NCBI GenBank assembly: GCA_023701125.1
Contig: JAMPXO010000017.1
Location: 1 to 58,497 of the forward strand
DNA: 58,497 bases
DNA from: Vicinamibacteria bacterium
GTDB lineage: Bacteria > Acidobacteriota > Vicinamibacteria > Fen-336
Reading direction: 5' to 3'
Below, in pieces: positions 7,962 to 47,632 of the stretch. Below the pieces are notes generated by a model that was given only the letters and a program-made list of their open reading frames with translations, had not been told where the DNA came from and did not search any database. Every line of letters starts with the position of its first letter. Position 1 is the first letter of the stretch. Made by a program: the position numbers and the translations under genes.

Positions 7962-8348
7962 CTAGACCTTGCGCACGGGCCCGCCATAGCGAGCGAGCCG
8001 CGCGTCGGCGGTGAGCAGGGTGATGCCCTCGCAGAGGGCCTGCGCCAGCAGGATGCGGTCGAAAGGGTCCTTGTGGAGGGCGGGCAGGGTGTCGATGTTC
8101 ACGGCGTGCTCGCTCGTCACGGCCAACTCCGTGTAGCCGTTGTCGAGCAGGCCCCGGCGCAGCAGCCGCGGCTCGACGCGGAAATCGTCCCGCCCCAGGC
8201 CGCTCTTGATGGCGATCTCCCAGAGGCTCGCGGCGCTGAACAGGAGGTCGTGGCCCGGGTCGTTCAGCAGCTTGCGCGCGGAGGCGGGGAGACGGTCGGG
8301 CTGGCCCGCGGCCCACAGGAGGACCTGAGTGTCGAGCAGCAGCTTCAC
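7962..8348 (-). CDS. vapC: VapC-family PIN-domain toxin
   Basis: A 128-residue PIN-domain ribonuclease. The acidic metal-binding residues are visible: Asp6 (LLLDTQVLLW), Glu44 (SLWEIAIK), Asp94/Asp97 (KDPFDRILLAQA) and the late TADARL Asp. The LLLDTQVLLW...EIAIK pattern is typical of the PIN subgroup paired with Phd-type antitoxins. By family it cleaves RNA, often initiator tRNA or rRNA loops, when freed from its antitoxin. The GTG start at 8348 overlaps the antitoxin stop as GTGA, so translation is probably coupled. Confidence 0.92.
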   Translation of the reverse strand: MKLLLDTQVLLWAAGQPDRLPASARKLLNDPGHDLLFSAASLWEIAIKSGLGRDDFRVEPRLLRRGLLDNGYTELAVTSEHAVNIDTLPALHKDPFDRILLAQALCEGITLLTADARLARYGGPVRKV

Positions 8349-8584
8349 GCGCCGCCCCCGAACAGGGCCTCGATCTCCTCCTCGCCCATCCGGTCGAAAT
8401 CCCGGGGCACCGAGATCTCTCCTTTCAGGAAGCCCAGGCGCTTCCGCGCTCGCGGGGCGTCGAGGGCCGCGACCTTCACCAGCGGCTTGCCCGCCCGCGC
8501 GATCACGACCGGCTCGCCTTTCGCGGCCCGGTCGACCAGCTTCGAGAACTGGGTCTTGGCTTCGTGGATGTTGACGGTGACCAT
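8345..8584 (-). CDS. Phd/YefM-family antitoxin
   Basis: A 79-residue antitoxin. The N-terminal two-thirds (MVTVNIHEAKTQFSKLVDRA, then GEPVVIARAGKPLVKV) is a clear Phd/YefM DNA-binding fold; the C-terminal tail, which should wrap the toxin, ends EEEIEALFGGGA. It neutralises the PIN toxin encoded directly downstream and by family represses its own promoter. The ATG at 8584 follows GGAGG. An imperfect palindrome just upstream is a likely operator. Confidence 0.92.
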   Translation of the reverse strand: MVTVNIHEAKTQFSKLVDRAAKGEPVVIARAGKPLVKVAALDAPRARKRLGFLKGEISVPRDFDRMGEEEIEALFGGGA

Positions 8585-26728: not shown

Positions 26729-27229
26729 TCAGGCTCCCTCCGCCTCGCGTCGCTTGAGGATGCGCAGGTTGTCCTCCACCTCGGCTTCTTCCTGCAGGTC
26801 GAGGATCTGGGTCACGCGGCCGATCAGCGCGCGCAGGTCGTCGCGCACGCCCTTGCGTTGCGCGCGCAGGTCGAGGATGCCGCGCTCGACCTCGTGGGCG
26901 CGCGACTGCGCCAGCTCGACCAGCCGGTCGGCGCGCAGCTCGGCCTCGCGCATGGTGGCCTCGGACTGCTTGCGGGCGGCCTCCTTGACCTCCTCCGACA
27001 CGCGCTGCGCCAGCAACAGCGTGTTCTTGAGGATGGCCTCGCGCTGGCGGTGCTCCTCGAGCAGCAGGCGGTGGGTCTCGTTCTCCTGCTTGAGCGCCGC
27101 GTGCTGCTGGAGCAGGCCCGCGACCTCCTCCGCCACGATGTTGAGGTAGGCCCGGACCTCGTCCGGATCGAACCCGCGGAGCTTGCGCTGGAACGGGTGG
27201 CGCTGGATGTCCATCGGCGTCAGGTTCAT
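26729..27229 (-). CDS. DivIVA-domain protein
   Basis: A 166-residue coiled-coil protein. The first 45 residues (MNLTPMDIQRHPFQRKLRGF, then DPDEVRAYLN) are the DivIVA membrane-curvature-binding module; the rest is a long coiled coil rich in Glu, Arg and Ala. In Gram-positive bacteria DivIVA marks poles and septa and recruits partners; in Gram-negative groups the role is less clear. Its place beside yggT, yggS and DUF167 matches the conserved cluster near cell-division genes. ATG at 27229 with AGGA upstream. Confidence 0.92.
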   Translation of the reverse strand: MNLTPMDIQRHPFQRKLRGFDPDEVRAYLNIVAEEVAGLLQQHAALKQENETHRLLLEEHRQREAILKNTLLLAQRVSEEVKEAARKQSEATMREAELRADRLVELAQSRAHEVERGILDLRAQRKGVRDDLRALIGRVTQILDLQEEAEVEDNLRILKRREAEGA

Positions 27230-27569: not shown

Positions 27570-28274
27570 TCAGGCCGCCTGTCGTCGCTCGCCGAACAGC
27601 GCCGTGCCGACCCGAACCAGCGTGGCGCCCTCCTCGATCGCGATCTCGAAATCGTGGCTCATCCCCATCGACAGCTCCGCGCCCTCCAGGAGCAGGCCGC
27701 GCGCCGTCGCCGCCTCGCGCAGCTCGCGCAACCGGCGGAACCACGGCCGCACCGCCTCCGGCTCGAGGTCGAACGGCGGCAGCACCATCAGCCCCGAGCT
27801 GCGCAGTCCCGGCAGCCCGCGCAGCGCCTCGAGCAGCGGGTAGAGCGCGTCTTCGCCCGCGCCGTGCTTGGTCGGCTCGTGGGCGAGGTCGACCTGGACC
27901 AGCACCTGCAGAACGCGCCCGGCGTCGACGGCAGCCCGCGACAGCTTCTGCGCCAGCTCGGCGCTGTCGACCGAGTGGACCACGTCGAAGCAGGCTGCCG
28001 CCTTCTTCGCCTTGTTCGACTGGAGGTGGCCGATCAGGTGCAGGCGAAGATCGGCCCCTTCGCGCAGGTCGCGCAGCTCCGCGGCCTTGCGCTCGCCCTC
28101 CTGGACCTTGTTCTCGCCGAACTCGCGCAGGCCCGCCGCGTACGCCTCCCGCATCGCCTCGGCGGGAAAGGTCTTGCTGACCGCCACGAGGGTGACGTCC
28201 TCGGGGCGGCGGCCCGCGCGCTGCGCCGCCCGGGAGATGCGCTCCCGGACGGCGCGGACGCGGTCCACGATCAC
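27570..28274 (-). CDS. YggS-family pyridoxal-phosphate homeostasis protein
   Basis: A 234-residue PLP-binding protein with the alanine-racemase-like barrel fold. Lys34 in VAVSKTF is the PLP-binding residue; FGENKVQEG, HLIGHLQSNK and LSMGMSHDFEIAIEEGATLVRVG are diagnostic. It buffers PLP supply; no racemase activity is known. The GTG at 28274 overlaps the stop of the TPR gene as GTGA; a second GTG two codons later is also possible. Confidence 0.94.
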   Translation of the reverse strand: MIVDRVRAVRERISRAAQRAGRRPEDVTLVAVSKTFPAEAMREAYAAGLREFGENKVQEGERKAAELRDLREGADLRLHLIGHLQSNKAKKAAACFDVVHSVDSAELAQKLSRAAVDAGRVLQVLVQVDLAHEPTKHGAGEDALYPLLEALRGLPGLRSSGLMVLPPFDLEPEAVRPWFRRLRELREAATARGLLLEGAELSMGMSHDFEIAIEEGATLVRVGTALFGERRQAA

Positions 28275-29224
28275 TTCTTCATCGCCTTGATTGCCGCCGA
28301 CAGGCCCTGGGCCGCGGCCACGTTGCCGGGGTTCTTGGCGTCGGGCAGGGCCAGGTACTTGTCGAAGTAGGCGATCGCCTCGTCCATCTTGTTCGCCTGG
28401 AAAGTGGCGGAGCCGAGCTGGAAGAACAGCTCGGGGTCGCCCTCGCCCAGCGACTCGGCCTTCTTCAACGTGTCGACGGCCTCGGCCGCGCGACCCGTGT
28501 TGAACATCACGTAGCCGACCTGGTAGTGGCCGCGCGAGCTCTCCGGGAACTTGGTCACGATCACCTGTGCCTCTTCCAGCGCCTTGGCGGTGTCGTTGCC
28601 GATCAGGAACAGGTTCGACAGCGCGACGTAGGCTTCGATGTAGTCCTCGCGGGCCACGATCGCCGCCCGGAACGCCGCTTCGGCCGCCGCCGCGTCGCCC
28701 TTCTTCTGGTGGATCAGGCCGAGGTTGTGGTGAATCTGGGGCACGCTCGGGTTCTTGGCGATCTCGGCCGTGTAGATGGCCGCGGCCTCGTCCAGCTTGC
28801 CCGCGTTGGTCAGCTCGACCGCCTGGCCGAAGGCCTTCTGCAGCGCGCCGGCCACGTCGGCCGCTCCAGCGCCACCGGCGCCGCCGGCGGCCGAGGCGGA
28901 CTGCAGCTTGACGTCGGGCAGCGTGGTCGGCTCGCCGAGGTTGATCTTCCACTCCAGGAACGTGCCCTGGAAGCCGTCCTTCCCGTACGTGATCTTGTAC
29001 ATCCCGGGGTAGACGCCGACCTGCGTGTACTCGCCCTTCTTGTTGGTCTTGGTGTCGTGGGTCTTGGTCACACCGCCGAGGAACTCCAGGTGGATCTTGA
29101 CGTCCACCAGGGGCTGGCCCTGGGTGTCGGTGACCTTGCCGCGCGCGATGCCGGTCTGCGCGGAGGCGGGAGCGGACAGGAGCACTCCGGCGAGGAGCCC
29201 CCCGAGCACGAGCGCACGCTTCAT
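28271..29224 (-). CDS. Secreted carboxypeptidase-regulatory-like and TPR protein
   Basis: A 317-residue protein with a signal peptide (1-23, ending APASAQ). Residues about 25-105 are a beta-sandwich of the carboxypeptidase regulatory-like type (GKVTDTQGQPLVDVKIHL...GEYTQVGVYPGMYKITY). A Gly/Ala linker (110-124) leads to about five TPR units filling the rest. It is likely periplasmic and binds partner proteins; no catalytic motif is seen. ATG at 29224 follows GGAGG. First gene of the yggS-yggT-divIVA-DUF167-hutI-ABC run. Confidence 0.8.
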   Translation of the reverse strand: MKRALVLGGLLAGVLLSAPASAQTGIARGKVTDTQGQPLVDVKIHLEFLGGVTKTHDTKTNKKGEYTQVGVYPGMYKITYGKDGFQGTFLEWKINLGEPTTLPDVKLQSASAAGGAGGAGAADVAGALQKAFGQAVELTNAGKLDEAAAIYTAEIAKNPSVPQIHHNLGLIHQKKGDAAAAEAAFRAAIVAREDYIEAYVALSNLFLIGNDTAKALEEAQVIVTKFPESSRGHYQVGYVMFNTGRAAEAVDTLKKAESLGEGDPELFFQLGSATFQANKMDEAIAYFDKYLALPDAKNPGNVAAAQGLSAAIKAMKK

Positions 29225-29344
29225 CGTCTTCCTCCCGAGGGGTCTGGAGCTCCCAGCGGGAACCGCGACGGGTTGATCCCGGCGCCGGAACCCGGAGAGG
29301 CGGCAAGCCCCTGAAATCAAAAGAATTCTCGCACGCCTTGCGGT

Positions 29345-30025
29345 TCAGCCGCGATACGGGATGGGGTCGGCCACGCCGGCGTCGGCAAAGCCGCGCAGGC
29401 GCAGCCGGCACGACTCGCACGCGCCGCAGGCCTCGGCCTCGCCCTGGTAGCACGACCAGGTCTGCTCGAACGGCACCCGCAGCGCGACCCCGCGGCGCAC
29501 GATTTCGGCCTTGGTCGCGTGGATCAGCGGGGTCTCGATCCCGATCTTCGTGTCCGGCCTGGTGCCGGTGCGGATCGCCGCTGCGAAGGCCTCGTAGAAC
29601 TCGGGGCGGCAGTCGGGGTAACCCGAGCTGTCCTCCCACACGGCGCCGACGAAGATCGCCTCGGCGCCGATCACCTCGGCCCACGAGGTCGCCGCACAGA
29701 GCAGGTGGGCGTTGCGGAACGGCACGTACGAGGTCGGCACCACGCCGGCCTCGGGCTCGCCCTCGCGAACCGCGATCCTTCGGTCGGTCAGGCTGCTGCC
29801 GCCGATCGCGCGCAGCGAACCGAAGTCGACCACCAGCCGTGCCTCCGCGTGGAAGTGGTCGCAGAGCGCCTCGAAGCAGGCCCGCTCCTTCGCCTCGGTG
29901 CGCTGCCCGTAGTCGGCGTGCAGCAGGGCGAGGCGGTGGTCGAGGGCGGCGATCGCGGCGGTGACGCAGGAGTCCATGCCGCCGCTGACGCAGACGACCG
30001 CCAGCGGCCGGTTGCGCGGGCTCAT
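29345..30025 (-). CDS. queC: 7-cyano-7-deazaguanine synthase
   Basis: A 226-residue PP-loop ATPase. SGGMDS (14-19) is the ATP loop, and Cys192, Cys200, Cys203 and Cys206 (CYQGEAEACGACESC) bind zinc. It converts 7-carboxy-7-deazaguanine to preQ0 in the queuosine pathway. SYVPFRNAHLL is the family substrate segment. The ATG at 30025 overlaps the queE stop as ATGA. Upstream open frame extensions are shadows. Confidence 0.95.
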   Translation of the reverse strand: MSPRNRPLAVVCVSGGMDSCVTAAIAALDHRLALLHADYGQRTEAKERACFEALCDHFHAEARLVVDFGSLRAIGGSSLTDRRIAVREGEPEAGVVPTSYVPFRNAHLLCAATSWAEVIGAEAIFVGAVWEDSSGYPDCRPEFYEAFAAAIRTGTRPDTKIGIETPLIHATKAEIVRRGVALRVPFEQTWSCYQGEAEACGACESCRLRLRGFADAGVADPIPYRG

Positions 30026-30678
30026 ACGCCGCGCTCCACGCCGGGCCAGAGGATCTTGTGGAGCTGGACCTGCAAGCGCACGGGTAGCGCGTCCGCGAGC
30101 ACGAAGCCGGCCAGCGCGCCAGGGTCGAGCGCGCCGTGGACGGGCGAGAACAGCACCGCGTGGCGCTTCTCGTGCAAGGCGCGCTCGCGCACCACGTCGC
30201 GCGCCCACTCGTAGTCGGCGCGGTCGCGGATCACGAACTTGACCTCGTCCTGCGGCCGCGGCAGCTCGAGATTGCGCCACTCGTTGCGCTTCTCCTCGCC
30301 GCTGCCGGGGCACTTCACGTCGACGATCGCCACGGCCCGCGGGTCGAGGCGGTCGAGCAGCACGTGGCCCGAGGTCTCGACGCACACTTCGAGCCCGTGG
30401 TCGAGCAGGAACGTGACGAAGTCGAAGGCCGCGGGCTGGACCAGCGGCTCGCCGCCGGTCAGCAGCACGCGCCGGCAGCGGAAGCCCTCGATCTGCGCGA
30501 GCAGCTCCTCGGCCGTGCGCGGGCCGCCCTCGTGGAAGGCGTAGGCGGTGTCGCACCACGTGCAGCGCAGCGGGCAGCCGGTCAGCCGCACGAAGACCAT
30601 GGGCACACCGGTGCGCGTGCCCTCGCCCTGAATCGAGTGGAACACCTCGTTGACCTTCAGCACGATCTGCGACGACAA
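30022..30678 (-). CDS. queE: 7-carboxy-7-deazaguanine synthase (radical SAM)
   Basis: A 218-residue radical-SAM enzyme making 7-carboxy-7-deazaguanine from 6-carboxytetrahydropterin. The cluster motif CPLRCTWC (Cys 35, 39, 42) follows NEVFHSIQGEG; LLTGGEPLVQ is also diagnostic. The TTG at 30678 is chosen because AGGAGG lies eight bases upstream and the protein then begins SSQIVLKVNEVF, like family members. ATG codons at 30705 and 30735 would add residues not seen in the family and crowd the divergent GTG at 30726. Coupled with queC. Confidence 0.93.
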   Translation of the reverse strand: MSSQIVLKVNEVFHSIQGEGTRTGVPMVFVRLTGCPLRCTWCDTAYAFHEGGPRTAEELLAQIEGFRCRRVLLTGGEPLVQPAAFDFVTFLLDHGLEVCVETSGHVLLDRLDPRAVAIVDVKCPGSGEEKRNEWRNLELPRPQDEVKFVIRDRADYEWARDVVRERALHEKRHAVLFSPVHGALDPGALAGFVLADALPVRLQVQLHKILWPGVERGV

Positions 30679-30725
30679 GCCGGGCGCCTCCTTTTCGTGG
30701 CACATTCTCGCAGCAAGGAGCTGCC

Positions 30726-31304
30726 GTGCTGACATCCCATTTCGTCAACGCCGTGTCCTACGCGTTCGAGCTGCACGCCAGGCAGAACCGCAAGCAGACG
30801 GAGATCCCCTACATCTCCCACCTGATGTCGGTCAGCGCACTGGTGCTCGAGGACGGCGGCAGCGAGGACGAGGCGATCGCGGCGCTTCTGCACGACGCCG
30901 TCGAGGATCAGGGTGGCACCAGGATCCTGGAGGAGATCCGCAGGCGCTTTGGCCAACAGGTCGCCCTGATCGTGGAGGCGTGCAGCGACTCGGTGACGGA
31001 CGACCCGGCGAAGAAGGCGCCGTGGGACGAGCGCAAGCGGGCCTACCTCGACCACGTCGAACACAAGTCGAGCGGGGCACTGAGAGTGACGGCCGCCGAC
31101 AAGCTCCACAACGCCCGCGCCGTGCTGGCCGACTATCGCGTCGTCGGCGAGGCGCTGTGGGCCCGATTCAGCGGGGGCCGGGACGGGACGCTCTGGTACT
31201 ACCGGGCGCTCGCCGATCGGCTCGGTGCTCGCTGCCCCGAGTCGCGCCTGGCCGCCGAACTGAACCGCACCGTCAGCGAGCTGGAGCGCCTCGCCGCCCG
31301 CTGA
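30726..31304 (+). CDS. HD-domain protein, MESH1/small-alarmone-hydrolase-like
   Basis: A 192-residue HD-domain protein matching the hydrolase half of RelA/SpoT. Residues: His17, RKQTEIPYISHL with His32, the HD pair His56-Asp57 in LLHDAVED, and Asp125 in AADKLHNARAVL. This is the Mn2+ site that removes pyrophosphate from (p)ppGpp. No synthetase, TGS or ACT part is present, so it resembles a stand-alone small alarmone hydrolase. The substrate is inferred; other nucleotides are possible. GTG start at 30726 with AAGGAG upstream. Divergent from queE. Confidence 0.85.
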   Translation: MLTSHFVNAVSYAFELHARQNRKQTEIPYISHLMSVSALVLEDGGSEDEAIAALLHDAVEDQGGTRILEEIRRRFGQQVALIVEACSDSVTDDPAKKAPWDERKRAYLDHVEHKSSGALRVTAADKLHNARAVLADYRVVGEALWARFSGGRDGTLWYYRALADRLGARCPESRLAAELNRTVSELERLAAR

Positions 31305-31311
31305 GCCGGCG

Positions 31312-31689
31312 TCAGGCCCCGCCCGGGATATACGTTGCCGAACAGCCGGGGGCTTCCCACACCCGCACGCGGAGCAGGTGGCGGCCCTCGTCGCCCAGGC
31401 CCTTCTTCACCTCGTCGAAGAAATAGCGGGCGACCGCCTCGGCCGACGGGCTCTGGCCCATGAAGTCCGGGTGGGTCGTGATGTCGTTGTAGTGGAAGCG
31501 GGCGGCGACCTCCTTGACCGCTTCCTTCAGGTGCTCGAAGTCGACCACGACGCCGATCGCGTCGAGCGTCTCGCCGCCGGCCACCACCTCGACCCGCCAG
31601 TCGTGGCCGTGGTTGGGCTCGATCGGCGCGCCGTCGCGGGTCAGCACGTGGGTGGCGCAGAACGTCGTCTCGTAGGCGGCTTCGAACAT
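31312..31689 (-). CDS. QueD/PTPS-family pterin synthase with PTPS-III-like active site
   Basis: A 125-residue pterin synthase fold. The three zinc-binding His are at 14 (FCATH), 27 and 29 (NHGHDW). The catalytic Cys that should lie four residues before the HGH motif is Ile23, while Glu24 gives the pattern ExxHGH. In PTPS-III enzymes a Glu replaces the Cys, and they make 6-hydroxymethyl-dihydropterin for folate in place of FolB. True QueD, which makes 6-carboxytetrahydropterin, keeps the Cys. The nearby queC and queE favour a queuosine role, the active site favours folate; both may hold. ATG at 31689. Confidence 0.8.
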   Translation of the reverse strand: MFEAAYETTFCATHVLTRDGAPIEPNHGHDWRVEVVAGGETLDAIGVVVDFEHLKEAVKEVAARFHYNDITTHPDFMGQSPSAEAVARYFFDEVKKGLGDEGRHLLRVRVWEAPGCSATYIPGGA

Positions 31690-31723
31690 GCCCGATCGTA
31701 ACCCGCCGCTTATCATCAGGGCC

Positions 31724-32611
31724 GTGAGCGAGCGGCCTGTCGACCTGCGCCGCGGCGCCCTGAGCATGGTCACCTCGGGCCTGCTGTTCGCCTTCATGGG
31801 CGTGGCCATCAAGCTGGCGGCGGCCGAACTGCCCAACACCGTCGTGGTGTTCGCCCGCAACGCACTGGGCCTGCTCGCGTTCGTGCCGCTGCTGCCGCAG
31901 CTCTACCGCATCGGCTGGCGCACCCACGCGCTGCGCGAGCACCTGGTGCGGGGCCTGGCCGGGCTGGGCGCGATGTACGGCAACTTCTACGCGATCGCCC
32001 ACCTGCCGCTGGCCGACGCGGTGCTGATCAACTACTCGGTGCCGCTGTTCATGCCGCTGATCGAGCGCGCCTGGCTGGGCGAGCCGGTGCCGAAGGGGTT
32101 GCCGAGCCGGCTGGCACTGGGCTTCGTGGGCGTGCTGTTCGTGCTCAAGCCCGGCAGTGGCCTGTTCCAGGCCGCGGCCCTCGCCGGCCTGCTCGGGGCG
32201 CTGTCGGGGGCGCTGGCCCAGGTCGGCATCCGGCGCCTGACCGCGAGCGAGCCGACGCTGCGAATCGTCGTCTACTTCAGCGTGATCGCCACCCTCGCCT
32301 CGGCGACGCCGCTGCCGCTGTCGTGGCGGACCCCGCAGACGACCGGCGTGTGGGCCGCGCTGGTGGCGGCCGGCGTGCTGGCCAGCGTGGCGCAGTTGTT
32401 CCTGACCCGCTCGTACTTCTACGCCCCGGCGGGCAGCGTCGGCCCGTTCATGTTCGCCTCGGTGCTGTGGGCGGCCGCGCTCGACTACCTGTTCTTCGAC
32501 CGCCTGCCGGGCGCTTCGTCGCTGGCCGGCGGCGCGCTGATCGTGACCGCCGGCATCCTCTCGCTGCGCACGGCCCCGCGGATCACGGCCCCGACCACGA
32601 TCGACGACTAG
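31724..32611 (+). CDS. EamA/DMT-family exporter
   Basis: A 295-residue, ten-span transporter with two EamA repeats (SGLLFAFMGVAIKLAAAELPN and, in the second half, YFYAPAGSVGPFMFASVLWAAALDYLFFDRLP). It differs clearly from the DMT gene at 18.7 kb. Substrate unknown. GTG at 31724 is preferred; an in-frame ATG at 31688 would share CATG with the divergent pterin-synthase start and leave no promoter. Convergent with the helicase gene, sharing CTAG at 32608-32611. Confidence 0.88.
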   Translation: MSERPVDLRRGALSMVTSGLLFAFMGVAIKLAAAELPNTVVVFARNALGLLAFVPLLPQLYRIGWRTHALREHLVRGLAGLGAMYGNFYAIAHLPLADAVLINYSVPLFMPLIERAWLGEPVPKGLPSRLALGFVGVLFVLKPGSGLFQAAALAGLLGALSGALAQVGIRRLTASEPTLRIVVYFSVIATLASATPLPLSWRTPQTTGVWAALVAAGVLASVAQLFLTRSYFYAPAGSVGPFMFASVLWAAALDYLFFDRLPGASSLAGGALIVTAGILSLRTAPRITAPTTIDD

Positions 32612-34566
32612 AGCTGCGGCCGCGAGCCCGGCGGCTCGAGCCCGGCGGCGAACTCGCGCACCTGTTCCAGGTCGTGGACGAGGCGGGCCGGCGGCAGGCT
32701 CTGCAGGAAGCGCCGGCCGTAGCTCTTCTCGACCAGGCGCGAGTCGAGCACCGCCAGGATGCCGCGATCGGAGGCGCTGCGGATCAACCGGCCCAGGCCC
32801 TGCTTCAGCATCAGGATCGCGACCGGCACCTGGTACTCGGCGAACGGGTTGCCGCCCTGGTTCTTCAGCCGGTCGATGCGGGCCGAGACCACGGGGTCGG
32901 CCGGCGAAGCGAACGGCAGCTTGTCGACGATCACGCACGAGAGCTGCTCGCCCGCGACGTCGACGCCCTGCCAGAACGACGCGGTCGCCAGCAGCACCGC
33001 GTGCGGCGTGCGGCGGAACTGCTCGATCAGCGTCGCCCGCGGCGCTTCGCCCTGCACCAGCAGCGGCCACGGCACGCGGCCGGCCAGGCGCTCGGCCACC
33101 TTGTGCAGGTTCTGGTACGAGGTGAACAGCACGAACGCGCGGCCCTGCGACAGCTCGAGCAGCGCCTCGGTCTCCTCCGCCGCGCGGTCGACGAACGCCG
33201 GCGACTGCGGCTCCGGCATCCGCTTCGGCACGTACAGCACCGCCTGCCGCGCGAAGTCGTAGGGCGACGGCAACAGGACTTCTTCGACGTGGTCGGCCTC
33301 GAGCCCCAGCCGCGAGCGCAGGTGCGCGAAGCCGCCGTCGACGGCCAGCGTCGCCGAGGTCAGCACCGCGGCCCGGGCGGGCGTCCACAGCCGCTCGCGC
33401 AGCAGTGGTGCCACGTCGATCGGGGTCGCTCGCAGCGCCACGTAGCGGCCGCGCGCCTCGCAGAAGTAGACGTGGTCGGGGTCCTTCGCCTCCAGCAGGA
33501 AGCCGAGCTCGTCCTTGACCTGCGCGGCCCGCGTCGCCAGCCCGGTCAGGCCCTCGCCGCGCTCGGGCACCGCCAGGATCGCCGCCGACAAACCCTGCAG
33601 CCGGTTCAGCAGCGCGCCGCCCTCCTCGGCCGCGCGCCCGCTCATCCAGCCGGCCGCCAGCCGCTGCCCCGCCGCACGAGCCAGCAGCTTGAACGCGGAG
33701 TCGGCGCGGTGGCGCAGCGACTCGACCTGGCTGTAGACCTCGCGCGCGTCGAGGGTGGCCGCCTTCAGCTCGCGCTCGACGTCGCGGCACAGCTCGTCGA
33801 CCTTGAGCGAGCTGACCTGCTTGCCGAAGTACTGGGCGGCCGTGTCCTCGATCAGGTGCGCCTCGTCGAGCACCAGCGTGTCGTAGTCGGGGATCACCGC
33901 GCCGTAGCCCGCGTCCTTGACCGCGAGGTCGGCGCACAGCAGGTGATGGTTGACGATCACGAGGTCGGCGCGCTCGGCGTCCTGCCGCATCCGCGTCACG
34001 AAGCAGGACTGGAAGCTCGGGCACGAGCCGCCGACGCAGTTCTCGCTGGTGGCCGAGATCTCGCGCCAGAAGTCGACGCCGTCGGGCAGGTCCTCGATCT
34101 CGGCGCGGTCGCCGGTCGTCGTGTCCGGCAGCCAGCGCTCGACCGCCTGGAACAGCGGGATCTCCTCGAAGCGGCGGTAGGTGCCGGCCTTGCGGAACGA
34201 CTCGAAGCGGGTCAGGCACAGGTAGTTGCCGCGCCCCTTCATGACCGCCACGGAGAGCGGGCGACCCAGCGCCCGGGCCAGCACCGGGATGTCCTTGTCG
34301 ACGAGCTGCTCCTGCAGGTTCTTGGTGCCGGTCGAGATCACCACCCGGCGCCCGGCCTCGACCGCGGGCAACAGGTAGGCGAGCGTCTTGCCGGTGCCGG
34401 TGCCGGCCTCGGCCAGCAGCACGCCGCCGTCCTCGAGCACGCGCTCGACCGCCTCCGACAGCCTGCGCTGCGCGCCGCGGTCCTCGTAGCCCGGGAGCTG
34501 CCGCGCGAGCAGGCCGCTGCTGCCGAAGAAGTGGGCGGGGTCGACGCGGGACGGGGCTTGCGGCAT
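32608..34566 (-). CDS. DinG/XPD-type ATP-dependent DNA helicase
   Basis: A 652-residue superfamily-2 helicase with Walker A EAGTGTGKT (53-61), DEAH box (234-237), and the Fe-S cluster Cys 117, 177, 182 and 188 inserted between motifs Ia and II. Later motifs include FTSYQNLHKVAERL, ATASFWQGVDVAGEQL and a QGLGRLIRS arginine finger. It unwinds DNA 5'-3' with roles in repair and R-loop or fork processing. It resembles YoaA/DinG; no exonuclease domain is fused. ATG at 34566. Confidence 0.92.
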   Translation of the reverse strand: MPQAPSRVDPAHFFGSSGLLARQLPGYEDRGAQRRLSEAVERVLEDGGVLLAEAGTGTGKTLAYLLPAVEAGRRVVISTGTKNLQEQLVDKDIPVLARALGRPLSVAVMKGRGNYLCLTRFESFRKAGTYRRFEEIPLFQAVERWLPDTTTGDRAEIEDLPDGVDFWREISATSENCVGGSCPSFQSCFVTRMRQDAERADLVIVNHHLLCADLAVKDAGYGAVIPDYDTLVLDEAHLIEDTAAQYFGKQVSSLKVDELCRDVERELKAATLDAREVYSQVESLRHRADSAFKLLARAAGQRLAAGWMSGRAAEEGGALLNRLQGLSAAILAVPERGEGLTGLATRAAQVKDELGFLLEAKDPDHVYFCEARGRYVALRATPIDVAPLLRERLWTPARAAVLTSATLAVDGGFAHLRSRLGLEADHVEEVLLPSPYDFARQAVLYVPKRMPEPQSPAFVDRAAEETEALLELSQGRAFVLFTSYQNLHKVAERLAGRVPWPLLVQGEAPRATLIEQFRRTPHAVLLATASFWQGVDVAGEQLSCVIVDKLPFASPADPVVSARIDRLKNQGGNPFAEYQVPVAILMLKQGLGRLIRSASDRGILAVLDSRLVEKSYGRRFLQSLPPARLVHDLEQVREFAAGLEPPGSRPQL

Positions 34567-34632
34567 GGAACGCCAATGGTAAGCGGCGCCGCGCCCGCCG
34601 GCGGACCTGCGCGCTACACTCGGTTCTCCCGG

Positions 34633-35430
34633 ATGGCCACCTACGCGATCGGCGACGTGCAGGGCTGCTTCCGCACCCTCGAGCGGCTGCTGCGCCGGCT
34701 GGCGGTGCGCGATGACGATCGGCTGTGGCTGGCGGGCGACCTCGTCAACCGCGGCCCGCGCTCGCTGGAGGTGCTGCGCTGGGCGAAGCAGCAGGGCGAG
34801 CGGGCGACCGTCGTGCTCGGCAACCACGACCTCCACCTGCTCGGCGTCGCCGCAGGCTGGCGCCGCCACAAGCCGAGCGACACGCTGGTGCGGGTCCTGG
34901 AGGCGCCCGACCGCGAGCCGCTGCTCGCCTGGCTCCGCCAGCGCCCGCTGGTCCACCGCGAGGGCCGCTTCCTGCTCGTCCACGCCGGCCTGCTGCCCGC
35001 CTGGACCGCGGACCAGGCCGAGGCGCTGGCTCGCGAGGCCGAAGCTGCGTTGCAGGGCGAGGAGGCCGAGCGCGTGTTCGAAGAGCTGCGCGACGACCCG
35101 CCGGCCTGGCGCGACGACCTCAAGCGCCGCGCGCGGGTGCGGCTGGCGCTGTACGCGTTCACCCGGATGCGGGTGGTCGGCAAGGACGGCCAGCCCCGCG
35201 ACGGTTTCGCCGGCCCGCCGGAGAAGGCGCCCAAGGGCACCCAGCCGTGGTTCGACGCGTCAGGGCGCAAGAGCGCGAACGTGACGGTGGTGTGTGGACA
35301 CTGGGCTGCGGCCGGGCTGCGGGTGCGGCCTGACCGCATCGCGCTCGACAGCGGCTGCGTTTGGGGCCGCGCGCTGTCCGCGGTCCGCCTCGAGGACGGC
35401 ACGATCTACCAGGAACAGTTCTGTGACTAG
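34633..35430 (+). CDS. apaH: Symmetrical bis(5'-nucleosyl)-tetraphosphatase
   Basis: A 265-residue metallophosphatase. GDVQGC (7-12), GDLVNRGP (35-42), GNHD (63-66), LLVHAGLLP and VCGHWAAAGL follow the PPP-family order. It splits Ap4A to two ADP and so removes stress dinucleotides and RNA caps. The ATG at 34633 gives the standard MATYAIGDVQG start. The gene is divergent from the helicase gene with a 66-base gap. Confidence 0.94.
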   Translation: MATYAIGDVQGCFRTLERLLRRLAVRDDDRLWLAGDLVNRGPRSLEVLRWAKQQGERATVVLGNHDLHLLGVAAGWRRHKPSDTLVRVLEAPDREPLLAWLRQRPLVHREGRFLLVHAGLLPAWTADQAEALAREAEAALQGEEAERVFEELRDDPPAWRDDLKRRARVRLALYAFTRMRVVGKDGQPRDGFAGPPEKAPKGTQPWFDASGRKSANVTVVCGHWAAAGLRVRPDRIALDSGCVWGRALSAVRLEDGTIYQEQFCD

Positions 35431-47057: not shown

Positions 47058-47294
47058 ATGCAGGAGCCCGCACACCTGCCGAAGGCACTCGGCTTGAAAG
47101 TCGAGCGTGTGGCACGTCGCCTCGGCAAGCCCCGCCGCGTCGTCCTCCGGGAGGCCATCGAGGAGTACGCCGCTCGCCACGACGCGGATGCGGTGACCAC
47201 GGCCATGAACCGCGCCGTCGCCGAGATCGATACCCGTGCTGATCCGGCTCTGGCAGAGGCCACTCGGACGTTGCTGGAGCGATCGGACTGGTGA
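47058..47294 (+). CDS. Ribbon-helix-helix antitoxin
   Basis: A 78-residue protein with an N-terminal ribbon-helix-helix-like stretch (LKVERVARRLGKPRRVVLREAIEEYAAR) and an acidic tail that should wrap the toxin. It precedes a MazF-type toxin with a GTGA overlap, the usual layout of such pairs. By family it binds DNA as a dimer and represses the operon. ATG at 47058, 52 bases after clpB stops, so read-through from clpB is possible. Confidence 0.8.
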   Translation: MQEPAHLPKALGLKVERVARRLGKPRRVVLREAIEEYAARHDADAVTTAMNRAVAEIDTRADPALAEATRTLLERSDW

Positions 47295-47632
47295 TCGGGC
47301 AGGGCGAGATCTGGTGGGCCGACCTGCCCGCCCCTCGCGGTTCAGAACCGGGCTTCCGAAGACCGGTGCTCGTCGTTCAGGGTGACGCTCTGAACTCGAG
47401 CCAGATCGCGACAGTCATCTGTGTCCCCATCACCAGCAACCTGAAGTGGGCTGACGCTCCCGGTAACGTCTTCGTGCGCGCTCGCCAATCCGGCCTCCCA
47501 AAGGACTCGGTGGCGAACGTCTCGCAGATCATCACCCTCGACCGTGCCACCCTGACCGAACGCGCCGGGCGCGTTCCTCGCGCTGTCCTGATCCGCGTGC
47601 TGGAGGGCATCGACATCGTCCTCGGTCGCTGA
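47291..47632 (+). CDS. MazF/PemK-family toxin endoribonuclease
   Basis: A 113-residue toxin. The family pattern GEIWWADLPAPRGSEPGFRRPVLVVQ, the strand TVICVPITSN and the late VANVSQIITLDRATL match MazF/PemK enzymes, which cut mRNA at short sequence motifs. Start GTG at 47291 overlaps the antitoxin stop as GTGA. The gene's stop TGA (47630-47632) lies in a GTCGCTGACGA stretch also found in clpB (46787-46797), at the edge of a clpB-like fragment. Confidence 0.92.
   Translation: MIGQGEIWWADLPAPRGSEPGFRRPVLVVQGDALNSSQIATVICVPITSNLKWADAPGNVFVRARQSGLPKDSVANVSQIITLDRATLTERAGRVPRAVLIRVLEGIDIVLGR

Follow-up and report, generated by a model that had tools for sequence, protein, structure and literature searches.

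A probable folate-type PTPS in the queE-queC locus of a Vicinamibacteria genome without a detected FolB

The stretch of DNA analysed here, called the window below, is the whole of one contig (C127; 58,497 nucleotides) from a Vicinamibacteria bacterium whose 5.4 Mb genome, 95% complete, is spread over 254 contigs. Positions 31312-31689 hold a gene for a protein of 125 amino acids (MFEAAYETTFCATHVLTRDGAPIEPNHGHDW...), with an ATG start and a TGA stop, on the minus strand, an orientation added in this work, as the initial annotation gave none. The gene, its diagnostic codons and its neighbours are as follows.

31312..31689, minus strand: PTPS-III-like gene (PF01242 and motif reading; AlphaFold model of the PTPS fold)
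31603..31623, minus strand: signature codons I23-E24-P-N-H27-G-H29, with Ile at the Cys position and Glu24 as the PTPS-III residue (translation and alignment)
31489..31494, minus strand: codons for H66-Y67, at the positions that align with the catalytic Asp-His pair
30726..31304, plus strand: HD-domain gene (HD_4, RelA/SpoT-hydrolase-like) between the PTPS gene and queE (profile match, gene-order comparison)
30022..30735, minus strand: queE (NCBIfam TIGR04349, E=3.2e-81, 272 bits, cut-off 300)
29345..30025, minus strand: queC (PF06508, E=4e-64; TIGR00364 over cut-off)
28271..29320, minus strand: TPR-repeat-like gene, next after queC in genomes of the family (conserved order; named by sequence reading)
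27570..28265, start approximate, minus strand: yggS-like (PLP-binding) gene, a syntenic anchor (gene-order comparison)
26729..27229, minus strand: DivIVA-like gene, a syntenic anchor common to the genomes of family f10 (gene-order comparison)
31688..32611, plus strand: EamA transporter gene, the divergent neighbour (PF00892)
32608..34983, start probably later, minus strand: DinG-like helicase gene, the upstream anchor of the DinG-PTPS arrangement (gene-order comparison)

Elsewhere in the window, at 7962-8584 and 47058-47632, lie two small toxin-antitoxin-like pairs (Phd-like with PIN-like; RHH-like with MazF-like).

The encoded protein belongs to the PTPS/QueD family, matching Pfam PTPS (PF01242) with E=3.8e-29 and 101.5 bits (cut-off 22.4), and scores 63.6 bits against the NCBIfam QueD equivalog (TIGR03367), below the cut-off of 89.25. 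Its AlphaFold model (pLDDT 90) aligns to PTPS, QueD and PTPS-III chains at nearly equal Z scores of 12-16 (about 16 to PTPS/QueD), and because these chains tie, the fold cannot pick the function of the protein. With a dN/dS of about 0.1 against a same-genus genome (dN 0.04, dS 0.38), the gene appears to be under purifying selection.

Within the family, the published motif CxxxHGH denotes PTPS-I/QueD, and ExxHGH denotes PTPS-III (PMC5445326, PMC5041015). Counted from HGH (residues 27-29), the window protein has Ile at -4 (Ile23, codon 31621-31623) and Glu at -3 (Glu24, codon 31618-31620); translation thus bears out both the residues named in the initial annotation and its reading of them as a PTPS-III signature. 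Alignment identifies H14, H27 and H29 as the three zinc histidines, which are invariant in the clade, as are Glu24 and a C-terminal Glu112. The features that define PTPS-III, three zinc histidines in a COG0720/PF01242 protein and ExxHGH (here E24-P-N-H27-G-H29), are therefore both present. Of the features of PTPS-I/QueD, the catalytic Cys of CxxxHGH is absent (Ile23), and the catalytic Asp-His pair is replaced by His66-Tyr67, a substitution that the initial annotation did not mention. The hybrid PTPS-I/III motif CExxHGH is matched at its Glu and broken at its Cys, which is Ile, and the PTPS-II motif CxxxxxHGH fails at position -6, which is Ala21. As the Asp-His pair lies outside the published PTPS-III motif, we did not use its absence against membership and treat the loss as a variant. 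We also considered Cys11 (in FCATH) as a displaced catalytic Cys and ruled it out, since the residue is Ser in one relative (G150) and Ala in f10.

Inspection of the neighbourhood shows that the gene lies near queE and queC, as previously proposed, and is kept from direct adjacency by the HD-domain gene; the genomic link to queE/queC that is characteristic of PTPS-I/QueD is present, interrupted by this gene on the opposite strand. Among the genomes compared, of which the near relatives are Acidobacteria/Vicinamibacteria metagenome assemblies, the HD-domain gene occupies the PTPS-queE junction only in the window's genus; in a further member of the genus, G020, about 2.6 kb more (three further ORFs) is inserted there (L083:5410-8603). 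In most carriers of the window's family (f1, 14 genomes) outside this genus, the PTPS gene abuts or overlaps queE. Nine of the 14 genomes carry a Glu-type gene, always beside queE and, where the contig extends that far, queC. All nine keep [I/L]EPxHGH, which, together with the low dN/dS, argues that the ExxHGH of the window gene is not a chance occurrence. The Asp-His position in these proteins reads HY, HH or SY.

Genome-wide searches for folB and for a second, Cys-bearing QueD, both proposed in the initial annotation, bear directly on the function of the gene; gene absences reported here rest on family searches of genomes. The family search, which among the folate enzymes covered FolB, FolE and FolK, found no FolB (PF02152) in the host genome (95% complete, 254 contigs), an outcome that favours the PTPS-III reading, and recovered one FolK, two FolE-type genes, TGT, QueC and QueE, so the genomic setting of a PTPS-III, no FolB with the flanking FolE and FolK present, is found here. 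A second PTPS gene lies on contig C130 and encodes a 108-residue protein of the Cys type (AKCGRNHGH), with the Asp-His pair and the C-terminal Glu intact. This paralogue scores 81.2 bits against the NCBIfam QueD model, just below the cut-off of 89.25, and its counterpart in G014 scores 91.2 bits, above it; the genes around the Cys-type paralogue (epimerase, oxidoreductase and aminotransferase-like) show no pathway link. Because a Cys-bearing QueD-like gene is present on C130, the suggestion that the window gene replaced a true QueD finds no support in the host genome.

The same pattern recurs across f1. Twelve of the 14 genomes lack FolB, FolK is found in 12 and FolE in 13, and an intact Cys-type paralogue occurs in eight of the ten genomes with QueC. 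Selenocysteine at a TGA in the Cys-type genes of three relatives was considered and ruled out, the TGA being a plain stop after ...KWAEM. In G002 (99% complete), QueE, QueC and TGT are present and the Glu-type gene is the sole PTPS. The queE-queC locus of G005 lacks a PTPS, and that genome has a classical QueD (HKCGRLHGH) and a CETLHGH protein elsewhere; since G005 has neither FolB nor a Glu-type gene, the CETLHGH protein may be its source of 6-hydroxymethyl-dihydropterin. The gene for this 162-residue PTPS (L097:5172-5660) sits in a cluster that reads as tetrahydromethanopterin/C1-like (Mch-like, FhcC/D-like and ATP-grasp genes). FolB adjoins a second folK on one contig of G028, possibly contamination (reported contamination 5%). 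G017 (93% complete) has FolB and TGT and no PTPS, QueC or FolK, a combination that could reflect preQ/queuine salvage and a folate oddity, or an assembly artefact.

A profile search of 297 Acidobacteriota genomes divided them into 146 with a strong Glu-type match and 151 others, and FolB was found in 4 of the former versus 76 of the latter; among genomes with sequences read, 104 encode a Glu-type or CysGlu-type protein, and 2 of these have FolB. We rejected the absence of FolB as stand-alone proof, since FolB is also missing from 75 of the 151 genomes that have no strong Glu-type match; being common in the class and phylum without a Glu-type PTPS, it is weaker evidence than it appears. Many nearly complete genomes of the class, among them G003, G009, G037, G043 and G045, have no FolB and a single PTPS match, and the high-scoring PTPS proteins of the class that were read (loci L014-L039) are mostly long Cys-type forms with CKHPHGH and no Glu at -3.

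The PTPS proteins read number 135, drawn from about 120 genomes; 78 have both Cys and Glu, 24 Cys only, 29 Glu only and 4 fall outside these types. The Asp-His pair is kept in 102 of 102 Cys-bearing proteins versus 9 of 29 Cys-less Glu-type proteins, counts that ignore shared ancestry; the remaining Cys-less proteins have HY, DY, HH, SY, HD, HN or DG. Such loss is as expected if the Cys chemistry was given up. At least two PTPS genes are present in 28 of 29 genomes with a Cys-less form, G002 being the exception, as compared to 35 of 75 CysGlu genomes (shared ancestry uncorrected). Cys-less forms are spread over 11 family-level groups, and the tree requires at least two changes; the Cys-less clade of f45 is nested together with a CysGlu protein from f83 (support 100/96).

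Gene order further separates the types. Cys-less Glu-type genes lie beside queE/queC in 9 of 9 cases in f1 versus 0 of 20 outside it, and CysGlu genes do so at 41 of 77 loci. In f26, the DinG-PTPS-queE-queC slot is occupied by a CysGlu PTPS, and f10 has DinG, a Glu-type PTPS, YggS and DivIVA in a row with no queE-queC, the same anchors that flank the window gene. The occurrence of a CysGlu form in the same slot in f26 suggests that the window enzyme may have kept only the folate half of a dual activity. On descent of the window clade from a same-slot CysGlu form the tree is neutral, its 115 columns being too few to resolve the backbone; the closest proteins outside the clade are a pair of Glu types from Planctomycetes (87/74, not starred). 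Other arrangements were seen in passing. G363 (L163, L236) carries a tandem pair of near-identical PTPS genes with CENMHGH, as well as another paralogue that has GPATRLHGH and His-Tyr for Asp-His and resembles SCO6650-like proteins. At L222 (G195, f46), a PTPS beside DinG has neither Cys nor Glu (Gln-Asp) and has Asn-Gly for Asp-His, which suggests a degenerate or new-function occupant of the DinG slot.

Having set out these patterns, we consider the window gene to be probably a PTPS-III that stands in for FolB, with 6-carboxytetrahydropterin (CPH4) supplied by the C130 paralogue and with a bifunctional Cys+Glu enzyme as the former occupant of its slot. The window protein would make 6-hydroxymethyl-dihydropterin (6HMDP) for folate in place of the absent FolB, and the Cys-bearing paralogue would provide 6-carboxytetrahydropterin for QueE-QueC and queuosine. 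We propose that the gene stands beside queE-queC because, in other Acidobacteriota, the DinG-PTPS-queE-queC slot holds a bifunctional Cys+Glu PTPS-I/III; here, with Cys and Asp-His gone, the Cys-linked chemistry for CPH4 would have been lost and the Glu-driven side-chain cleavage of the folate half would remain. In f1 and f10 the slot is now Glu-only, and on the simplest account a separate Cys-type gene took over queuosine. Which reaction the enzyme catalyses, how the two genes share the work and which way the slot changed are what we infer. Against a PTPS-III that serves folate alone stand, among other points, the queE-queC address conserved in all nine f1 carriers, which is the one expected of a queD, and G002, which has QueC and TGT and no other PTPS.

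Both observations would fit a bifunctional enzyme that makes 6-hydroxymethyl-dihydropterin and 6-carboxytetrahydropterin and is still the QueD of its operon, the Cys paralogue being redundant or having another role. A precedent exists in the Glu-type PTPS of Plasmodium (FRETLHGH), with which the window motif shares its register: the wild-type enzyme yields 6HMDP and the conventional product in comparable amounts in vitro, so Cys is not absolutely required for PTPS-like chemistry, the Glu38Leu mutant is dead, and Glu38Cys makes the conventional product and no 6HMDP, for which Glu38 is needed (PMC2229834). Against this stand the Asp-His pair, universal among the Cys-bearing members read and gone from the window clade, the intact Cys-type paralogues in most f1 genomes with QueC, and the lack of Cys-less Glu types beside queE/queC outside f1. 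The initial annotation had offered service to both pathways as one of its two options; we regard it as unlikely, as both Cys and Asp-His pair are gone from the window protein, and leave it some room, as G002 has TGT, QueC, QueE and a Glu-type gene only. A little less likely still is the proposition that, in this acidobacterial family, a PTPS without the Cys-Asp-His triad supplies both CPH4 for the queE-queC operon that holds it and the folate precursor, for which G002 would be a living case. With FolB absent, FolE and FolK present, and a Cys-bearing QueD-like gene on C130, neither a dual role nor replacement of QueD is the likeliest account; the window gene most likely serves folate synthesis from a place among queuosine genes.

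Two further accounts would remove the enzyme from folate synthesis altogether. It could be a QueD with a rearranged active site, the FolB step falling to another, unrecognised enzyme; the gene neighbourhood would fit, as would the many class genomes without FolB whose PTPS proteins, where read, are mostly long Cys-type forms and which, if they make folate and lack a Glu-type PTPS, need such an enzyme. We consider this improbable, given that the Glu at -3 matters for the folate reaction (PMC2229834) and is invariant in the clade, that most of these genomes have a Cys-type QueD-like gene, and that the QueD equivalog score is far under its cut-off. More improbable again, if slightly, is that the protein has left these pathways or, like PTPS-IV/V, represents a separate subfamily that makes another product. 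The His-Tyr in place of Asp-His, the functional diversity of the PTPS family (PMC5041015) and the presence of SCO6650 among the phmmer hits of the window protein speak for such a change, SCO6650 being a PTPS homologue in which the alignment likewise shows no Asp-His pair; the invariant zinc ligands, Glu24 and Glu112 and the purifying selection speak against it, and SCO6650 has HGA instead of HGH and no ExxHGH motif.

The preferred reading, a PTPS-III in place of FolB, has precedents. Work cited in PMC4674097 has, by that account, already reported that folB is missing from Acidobacteria with PTPS-III as its replacement, and CExxHGH hybrids (PTPS-I/III) act in both the folate and queuosine pathways (PMC5041015). 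For the window gene, context alone points to queD and motif alone to PTPS-III, and the family appears to show the slot of a dual-purpose enzyme coming to hold a single-function occupant. In a family often mislabelled by automatic annotation, the Asp-His pair, lost from 20 of the 29 Cys-less proteins read and from no Cys-bearing one (102 of 102 kept), offers an additional marker, easy to read, of folate-type versus queuosine-type members. The primary literature on PTPS-III and on the hybrid enzyme is reportedly Pribat 2009 and Phillips 2012.

The window protein compares as follows with the closest known systems. The FolB dihydroneopterin aldolase has the same proposed product and a distantly similar tunnel fold (Z about 8-9) and belongs to another family. 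E. coli QueD (PTPS-I; 4NTK) shares the fold, the zinc site and the place beside queE-queC with the window protein, which differs in lacking the catalytic Cys and the Asp-His pair and in falling under the equivalog cut-off. The PTPS-I/III hybrids have the Glu at -3, the DinG-PTPS-queE-queC slot, as in f26, and genomes nearly all devoid of FolB in common with it, whereas the window protein has neither Cys nor Asp-His and its genome has a separate Cys-type QueD-like gene. With PTPS-III proteins (COG0720; Plasmodium 1Y13/2A0S; Pyrococcus PH0634 2DJ6, assigned by motif; bacterial members) it shares the three zinc histidines, the PTPS fold, an ExxHGH motif that lacks Cys at -4, and a FolB-less genome with FolE and FolK. 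The Plasmodium and Pyrococcus proteins retain the Asp-His pair (LDHH/LDHR), unlike the window protein with its His66-Tyr67 and its gene in a queE-queC locus, and transfer of function from them is therefore inexact. What is new is that Asp-His is lost along with Cys and that such an enzyme is encoded in a queE-queC locus, which would make the window protein a new if modest variant of PTPS-III.
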